64,000 bases of DNA, taken from NCBI GenBank assembly GCA_003151815.1, contig PLYN01000045.1, positions 62,001 to 126,000 on the forward strand, in the 5' to 3' direction. Made by a program: the position numbers and the translations under genes. The notes beneath the pieces were generated by a model that was given only the letters and a program-made list of their open reading frames with translations, was not told the DNA's origin and made no database searches. Below are positions 30,864-32,139 of this stretch, in pieces (positions within the stretch are counted from its first letter, which is position 1; each line of letters opens with the position of its first letter). This DNA is from Bacteroidota bacterium. Lineage in GTDB: Bacteria; Bacteroidota; Bacteroidia; 2-12-FULL-35-15.

Positions 30864-31439
30864 ATGTTCTATCCAATGAAAAAAATGTTATTTTTAATTT
30901 TGTTTACATTATTTTATGCAAGCCAAACCATTACTGCCCAAAATTGCGGTGTAAACAGGTGGAGCATAAAAACACTTTCAGATATTGACACAATTAAAAT
31001 AGATTTTCAACAGATAATTCCTTCAACAGTTCATGAACAAATATCATTAGAAATTCCAACAGATAAAAAATCTCGACTTGAGTCCGAAACAAAAGTGTAC
31101 TCCATTGACTGTTTTATTGTTGGCTTCAAAAAAGAAAGTGATGATAAAGACATTCATATAATAATTAAAGATACTGAAACAGGCGAAACAATGGTAGCAG
31201 AAATTCCAAGCTACGAATGCTTTGAAATTGCAAAGACTAGCAGATATGAGTTATTTAAACAATTACAAGTATGGTTTATTGATAACATTGGACAACCAAA
31301 ATCAAAATTTGTATATCCTGAAAAACCAATACCTATTATAATTACCGGTGTTGGATTTTTCGATTTTAATCACGGACAAAAAGGAATGGCTAACAATGGA
31401 CGTGAAATTCATCCGGTATTATCAATCAAATTAAAATAG
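30864..31439 (+). CDS. Secreted conserved protein of unknown function
   Basis: The 191-residue product starts MFYPMKKMLFLILFTL; the second Met (30876) gives a standard signal peptide cleaved near AQNCG. The mature part contains NCGVNRWSIKTLSDIDT, YSIDCFIVGFKKESDDKDIH and ITGVGFFDFNHGQKG with a C-terminal NGREIHPVLSIK. I recognise this pattern as a widespread small secreted family of unknown role, also fused to other extracellular domains. It follows the deiminase gene by 13 bases and may be co-transcribed. Confidence 0.6.
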   Translation: MFYPMKKMLFLILFTLFYASQTITAQNCGVNRWSIKTLSDIDTIKIDFQQIIPSTVHEQISLEIPTDKKSRLESETKVYSIDCFIVGFKKESDDKDIHIIIKDTETGETMVAEIPSYECFEIAKTSRYELFKQLQVWFIDNIGQPKSKFVYPEKPIPIIITGVGFFDFNHGQKGMANNGREIHPVLSIKLK

Positions 31440-31461
31440 TCATTCAAAATAAAATTACTTA

Positions 31462-32115
31462 ATGTCGCAATACAACCCTAAAATTCACCATCGTAGAACA
31501 ATCCGATTACAAGGATATGATTATTCGCGGGCGGGTTTGTATTTTATTACCATCTGTTGTGAAAATAGAGAACACAGGTTTGGAAAAATTGAAAACAATG
31601 AAATGATTTTGAATGATGCAGGGAAAATTGCAGAAGAATGTTGGTTGGAAATTCCAAATCATTTTCCAAATGCAATATTGCACGAACATATTATAATGCC
31701 AAATCACATTCACGGCATAATACAATTGAAAACGGATAATATTGGTGGGGTTCAAAATGCAGGGGTTCAAAATTTTGAACCCCTACAACAAAACATACCA
31801 CCAATACCCGTAGGGGTTGAAAATTTTCAACCCCTACCGCGCAACGGGGAATGGATCGAAAATATAGGGATTCAACATTTTGAACCCCAACGAAACAAAT
31901 TTCAAAAAATAATTCCTCGTTCGATTGGTTCAATTGTTCGTGGATATAAAATCGGTGTTACAAAATGGTATCGTAATAATGGCGATATTGAAAAAATTTG
32001 GCAACGTAATTTTCACGAACACATTATCCGGGATGAAAAATCCTATCGACATATTTCAAATTACATAATCAACAACCCTGCAAAATGGCGGGATGACAAA
32101 TTTTATAATCAGTAG
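31462..32115 (+). CDS. REP-associated tyrosine transposase (Y1/RAYT family)
   Basis: The 217-residue protein has the Y1 transposase fold: YDYSRAGLYFITICCENREH, the HUH motif in MPNHIHGIIQL (H82, H84), and a C-terminal helix with Tyr195 and Tyr201 (SYRHISNYIINNP), one of which should be catalytic. Such enzymes cleave single-stranded palindromes (REPs). Residues 94-142 do not belong to the fold; they are encoded by palindromic DNA and read as GVQNFEPL, VGVENFQPL and GIQHFEPQ. A further palindrome covers the stop codon. Both transposase motifs are intact, so it may be active and may have spread palindromes of this type. Confidence 0.88.
   Translation: MSQYNPKIHHRRTIRLQGYDYSRAGLYFITICCENREHRFGKIENNEMILNDAGKIAEECWLEIPNHFPNAILHEHIIMPNHIHGIIQLKTDNIGGVQNAGVQNFEPLQQNIPPIPVGVENFQPLPRNGEWIENIGIQHFEPQRNKFQKIIPRSIGSIVRGYKIGVTKWYRNNGDIEKIWQRNFHEHIIRDEKSYRHISNYIINNPAKWRDDKFYNQ
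31761..31784. repeat. Perfect palindrome in the RAYT gene, copy 1
   Basis: AGGGGTTCAAAA and its complement TTTTGAACCCCT, 24 bases. A half copy (GGGGTTCAAAATG) precedes it at 31746-31758. Confidence 0.9.
31810..31837. repeat. Perfect palindrome in the RAYT gene, copy 2
   Basis: GTAGGGGTTGAAAA and TTTTCAACCCCTAC make a 28-base perfect palindrome. The sixth base from the centre differs from copy 1 on both arms (compensated change). Confidence 0.9.
31864..31889. repeat. Degenerate palindrome in the RAYT gene, copy 3
   Basis: ATAGGGATTCAACA and TTTTGAACCCCA form an imperfect copy. Confidence 0.7.
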
Positions 32116-32139
32116 GGGTTCAAAATTTTGAAACCCTAC
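32112..32139. repeat. Palindrome across the RAYT stop codon, copy 4
   Basis: GTAGGGGTTCAAAA and TTTTGAAACCCTAC pair with one mismatch. The TAG stop (32113-32115) lies inside the left arm, and the right arm feeds the upstream extension of the tilS frame. Confidence 0.85.

Follow-up and report, generated by a model that had tools for sequence, protein, structure and literature searches.

Results

A RAYT gene with a predicted disordered insert

The window, by which we mean the whole 64,000-nucleotide stretch that was analyzed, carries an open reading frame encoding 217 amino acids at 31462..32115 (+). In a motif alignment, its PNHIH, IWQ (W180-Q181), and YIINNP motifs agreed with those tabulated for subclass 2.4 of the RAYT/TnpA-REP transposases (PMC6006769), which is group 4 in the RAYT classification of Bertels et al. 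2017. H82-I-H84 and the tyrosine Y201 in YIINNP were invariant across the alignment of relatives, and Y201 is most likely the catalytic tyrosine. A Pfam scan of the protein gave no family match, even at a lenient threshold, and the NCBIfam model NF047646 (REP_Tyr_transpos) matched two stretches flanking the insert described below with 60.7 bits, which is below its cut-off of 80; this cut-off is the model's naming threshold, has no defining biology, and is outweighed by fold and motifs. A profile built from ten homologs retrieved the Escherichia coli TnpA-REP (4er8; E 3.3e-7), which was also the top PDB match of the AlphaFold model (mean pLDDT 67.6; E 2.9e-7), with the ISDra2 and IS608 transposases ranking next. 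As judged from its motifs and predicted fold, the gene is a RAYT/TnpA-REP with the Y1 HUH fold (HuH, then a single catalytic tyrosine), as a previous reading made from the letters alone (hereafter, the sequence-only reading) had proposed.

In the AlphaFold model, pLDDT was below 50 over residues 93-147, and the core on either side was mostly confident, consistent with the earlier claim that this segment does not belong to the Y1 fold. These predicted disordered residues separate the HuH strand (82-89) from helix alphaC (155-173). The sequence-only reading had correctly placed the insert after HuH but had put its far end next to the catalytic tyrosine helix; the model places it between the HuH strand and helix alphaC, because Y201 comes after alphaC and strand beta4. 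At the DNA level, this linker (approximately residues 94-147; 31741..31902, +) consists mostly of REP-derived repeats, and its length and sequence vary in relatives.

Palindromes within and at the end of the gene

The window palindromes are "double-foot" REPs (GTAG...CTAC), and the peptides of all three internal copies fall inside residues 93-147, in the linker between the HuH strand and alphaC. Ahead of REP 1 in the linker is an extra half unit, GGGGTTCAAAAT (31747..31758, +), which belongs to a direct repeat family and is a tandem duplication of the left arm of REP 1. REP 1 itself, GCAGGGGTTCAAAATTTTGAACCCCTAC (31759..31786), has a perfect 12+12 core (31761-31784) surrounded by outer bases reading GCAG...CTAC, so that one foot, CTAC, is intact. 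REP 2, GTAGGGGTTGAAAATTTTCAACCCCTAC (31810..31837), is a perfect 14+14, 28-bp, double-foot palindrome that encodes VGVENFQPL. REP 3 (31864..31891; core 31866-31889) has decayed, with three mismatches to the pattern and no feet. REP 4, GTAGGGGTTCAAAATTTTGAAACCCTAC (32112..32139), sits between the RAYT gene and tilS; its GTAG foot provides the TAG stop codon of the RAYT gene, and only its first four bases are coding. The sequence-only reading had called the palindromes perfect, both inside the coding sequence and across the stop codon. This description holds for REP 2 and for the core of REP 1, whereas REP 3 is decayed and the copy across the stop codon is not perfect, because it forms 13 of 14 pairs with one mispair. 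The compensated change that had been noticed in one palindrome is indeed present, REP 1 reading TTC...GAA where REP 2 reads TTG...CAA.

As single-stranded DNA, REP 2 was predicted to form a hairpin of -12 kcal/mol (z -4.9) and REP 4 one of -10 kcal/mol, both approximately 5 standard deviations beyond shuffles; the predicted hairpin of REP 3 was weak (-4.7 kcal/mol). REPs with a 5' GTAG at the hairpin foot are present both within the RAYT gene and at its stop codon. None of 100 dinucleotide-shuffled versions of the window contained the pattern. When synonymous codons were shuffled with the protein kept constant (n = 3000), an arm of 14 appeared in 6 shuffles and two arms of at least 12 in none, and the gene has both. 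An arm of 10 was reached in 380 of the 3000, indicating that the peptide itself favors weak palindromes; VGVENFQPL can be encoded in 24576 ways, and the gene uses the palindromic one. These results indicate that the palindromes are real, far beyond chance, and not expected from the protein sequence alone. An intrinsic terminator was ruled out, there being no T run and three of the four palindromes lying inside the ORF.

Copies elsewhere in the genome and the gene neighborhood

Genome-wide copies were counted by pattern searches. Allowing up to three mismatches, the window pattern had no other occurrence in the window's assembly (2.53 Mb, 76.6% complete), and there is therefore no sign of current mobility in this genome. 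A strict pattern, GTAGRGRYN12RYCYCTAC, was found in 87 of 395 genomes at 1 to 64 copies each. It occurred in 47 of the 86 genomes with this RAYT and in 40 of the 309 genomes lacking it (Fisher p 1.3e-14, without correction for kinship). In 20 genomes, at least one strict copy fell within a RAYT ORF, and 12 of these genomes, the window's included, had all their strict copies within RAYT ORFs. Other genomes, by contrast, carry dozens of dispersed copies: G052, G332, and G338 had 45 to 64 each, and the dispersed copies were seen in relatives such as G332. The sequence-only reading had named absence elsewhere in the genome as grounds for refuting its own proposal. Taken literally, such an absence is what we found here, in an assembly 76.6% complete. 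This does not count as a refutation of the REP interpretation, because in 12 of the 20 genomes with a strict intragenic copy, this one among them, strict copies occur only inside RAYTs; cognate REPs are usually, though not always, scattered through the genome of a RAYT host.

The RAYT gene upstream of tilS was absent from all 29 congeneric tilS loci examined, and it is a patchy accessory gene. The preceding gene, which encodes a 191-amino-acid hypothetical protein and together with the RAYT gene spans 30864-32115 of the window, was also absent upstream of tilS in 29 of 29 congeners; tilS and the next gene stayed together in 27 of 29. The RAYT gene and the hypothetical gene may have arrived together. 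No empty allele of the window RAYT gene was found.

Palindromes in the linkers of related RAYT genes

Relatives, mostly from Bacteroidota, were present in 8 of 36 genomes in a family sample and in 86 of 395 in a class sample, with thresholds that differ between the two samples; 106 RAYT ORFs were collected. Counting perfect palindromes with an arm of at least 10 and a loop of at most 4, we found 64 in the linkers of 52 genes (4.07/kb), 10 elsewhere in the gene (0.20/kb), and 38 in the 500-bp flanks (0.37/kb), which makes the linker 20 times denser than the remainder of the gene. The number of copies per gene ranged from 0 to 6, and one gene with no palindrome (L044) had a short linker and an intact core. 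The homologs thus differ in palindrome number and sequence, as expected for REPs inserted into a gene and as the sequence-only reading had anticipated.

Most palindromes in the relatives were 28 or 29 bp long, with the feet GTAGRGRY...RYCYCTAC in common and a center that differs by lineage. Because length and feet are shared and the center is not, the same linker position translates as VGVQNFEPL, VGTCHGMSL, VETGHALSL, VETLHATSL, or VGAIHELPL. With codon boundaries marked by slashes, 56 of the 64 linker copies were in the frame GTA/GRG, 8 in xGT/AGR, and 0 in G/TAG. Where both of the first two readings were open, they stood at 40 to 8, the copies not being independent, and the bias partly reflects shared ancestry of insertions.

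The half unit was expanded in L025, L088, and L091, the last of which amplifies the window's GGGGTTCAAAAT in tandem. In L026 (G252; 71% identity), the copy orthologous to REP 1 has the other compensated version, TTG...CAA instead of TTC...GAA. This gene has a premature stop after the linker, and its second palindrome lacks one arm: a hint, from one case, that palindromes in inactivated genes decay.

A second in-frame REP site, rarer than that in the linker, was seen between alphaC and beta4, where GGGCGAATTGCAATTCGCCC and its variants encode GEL[QK]FA in four genes (L094, L116, L119, and L140); L009 and L122 have another palindrome or frame at this site. Long tandem peptide repeats occupied the linkers of L033, L049, L133, L139, L148, and L159, some of them unrelated to REPs (DDGDV, QPDIQNG, LSGDSL, and others). 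The linker therefore tolerates expansion of almost any peptide.

Inverted flank extensions of REPs in relatives

Many REPs in the relatives were extended beyond their feet by 5-18 bp of perfectly paired, locus-specific inverted flank. At least 5 flank pairs were found in 25 of 95 distinct REP copies (approximately 0.1 expected). Counts of flank pairs, here and in G332 below, are raised by at most two or three pairs because TT tends to precede GTAG and AA tends to follow CTAC. Eight linker copies among the 106 RAYT genes had extensions of 5-13 bp. Extensions of 6-18 bp were found in G332 (loci L168-L200) and at related loci, for example at L191:1077, L168:1501, and L158:964. At least 6 perfectly paired flank bases, mostly 10-12, flanked 18 of 30 copies in G332, compared with approximately 0.07% of control positions, and pairing fell to background (24%) right after the first mismatch. 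The window's own REP copies had no flank extension.

G332 also contains a MITE-like repeat family (L192, L212-L218, L220, L234, and L237) whose copies differ by the presence of a REP. The form without a REP, AAATTTG-GAGGCTTTGCGAA-CAAATTT, makes a hairpin with a 13-nt loop; in the form with a REP, AAATTTG-ATT-REP-AAT-CAAATTT, this loop of the existing hairpin is replaced. The replacement favors entry of the REP into the tip of a hairpin that was already there; it may have happened only once and then have been multiplied along with the repeat. For the other extended copies, fold-back copying of one flank is possible. A search for empty sites (joined flanks, within the genus of G332) matched one other genome, in which the junctions were strongly diverged.

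Discussion

In-frame REPs in the window gene are of a kind already described. In subclass 2.4, REPs may bear feet at both ends, the "double foot" (Quentin et al. 2018, PMC6006769), and occur in frame inside tnpA-REP genes, generally between HuH and Y; such intragenic REPs are unique to and predominant in this subclass (PMC6006769). REPs in a RAYT gene are therefore not new, and the suggestion of the sequence-only reading that this gene departs from a RAYT norm does not stand. The gene appears to fit subclass 2.4 (Bertels group 4) by its motifs (NH[IFV]H, WQ, and YIxNNP in the subclass), its insert position (a variable beta3-alphaC insert), its REP type (double-foot, in frame between HuH and Y), and its host group, Bacteroidetes being among the hosts. 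Unlike in the published description, no copies were found in the assembly besides those of the window gene, and a fourth copy gives the stop codon. The useful additions here are the quantification in relatives and the RAYT gene as sole REP carrier in many genomes.

We consider it likely that the gene is a subclass 2.4 RAYT and that its palindromes are its own kind of double-foot REP, inserted repeatedly in the permissive linker and once at the 3' end. In this simplest account, REPs would have entered several times at the exposed linker, the one stretch tolerating almost any peptide, and once at the 3' end of the gene. In-frame copies would survive because the 28-bp unit reads through in two frames, the third reading the TAG of GTAG; half-unit slippage and point decay would then remodel the inserted copies. 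The protein itself presumably made the insertions, and it would bind and cleave the copies. GTAG plus a hairpin is what characterized RAYTs cut, with GTAG guiding the choice of cut site, in studies of groups 2 and 3, not group 4 (PMC8266576); our literature search found no biochemistry of subclass 2.4. Since both strands present a 5' GTAG beside a hairpin, intact copies are plausible substrates of the enzyme on either strand, and with every transfer the gene would thus bring along a REP stock of its own. In the window's genome, the stock in the RAYT gene was all that was found, and carrying it may matter.

Known systems share parts of this arrangement. The E. coli TnpA-REP with its REP/BIME (PDB 4ER8) has the same fold and catalytic motifs and a DNA of GTAG plus hairpin; its REPs, however, have a single foot plus a bulge and are found outside the gene, scattered in many copies. 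The IS200/IS605 elements IS608 and ISDra2 likewise combine the Y1 HUH fold with hairpin substrates and a 5' guide tetranucleotide, but there the hairpins are located near the ends of the element, not in the gene, and the whole element moves. Palindromic repeats kept in frame within protein genes are also known from the Rickettsia palindromic elements and from other REPs inside genes (Di Nocera et al. 2013, PMC3733652); their host genes are unrelated, whereas the host gene in the window encodes the presumed mobilizing enzyme. The same paper describes REPs that sit inside target palindromes.

An alternative is that the palindromes are kept for cis regulation, the RAYT curbing its own expression by binding them in its gene or mRNA. 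We think this unlikely, even though the palindromes are perfect in many genes, are the sole strict copies in 12 of the 20 genomes in which a RAYT harbors one, and, in L026, show both the alternative compensated pair in the orthologous first copy and a decayed second copy in a gene with a premature stop. Strict linker palindromes are missing from about half of the RAYT ORFs, and such a role is thus not a general requirement; compensated differences, moreover, need not mean selection, as they can arise by replacement with another REP subfamily or by template switching during replication, which can alter both palindrome arms at once (PMC8794818).

Published template switching of this kind also underlies a purely replicational origin, in which hairpin-primed switching and slippage made and kept the palindromes without any transposition. 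Half units repeated in tandem, seen at L025, L088, L091, and in the window itself, and the perfect inverted extensions into locus-specific flank at related loci are in line with this origin, yet it leaves unexplained both a GTAG-footed unit of one length at many sites (G052, G332, and G338) and the association of the palindrome with the RAYT gene, and as the sole explanation we find it improbable. Replication-based processes may well act together with transposition. That a V-[GE]-x5-[PS]-L peptide is the selected feature and the DNA symmetry secondary is very hard to believe, since, despite one predominant reading frame and a peptide that favors weak palindromes, the lineages differ in the peptide (NFEPL, HGMSL, HALSL, HATSL, and HELPL), the segment is predicted to be disordered and is missing in intact relatives, and the palindromic encoding is used out of 24576; a conserved protein motif was rejected on the same grounds of lineage-specific peptides, predicted disorder, and absence in intact relatives.

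Beyond insertion of REPs into the gene, we tentatively raise a further idea, in our view doubtful though worth stating, that group 4 RAYTs carry a heritable intragenic REP stock from which REPs spread via hairpin tips or fold-back copying, leaving an inverted extension of approximately 10-12 bp on both sides. The basis for hairpin-tip entry and fold-back copying is the relatives. The inverted flank extension of REPs may be a new observation and, if confirmed, would be a footprint of the REP insertion mechanism, a lead worth following.

RAYT genes that carry their own REPs offer a natural system for studying how REPs move, in which the enzyme is physically coupled to its presumed substrate and the orthologs record the gain, loss, and repair of palindromes. 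For annotation, linker peptides such as VGVQNFEPL, VETLHATSL, and VETGHALSL are translated REPs and should not be taken as protein motifs.
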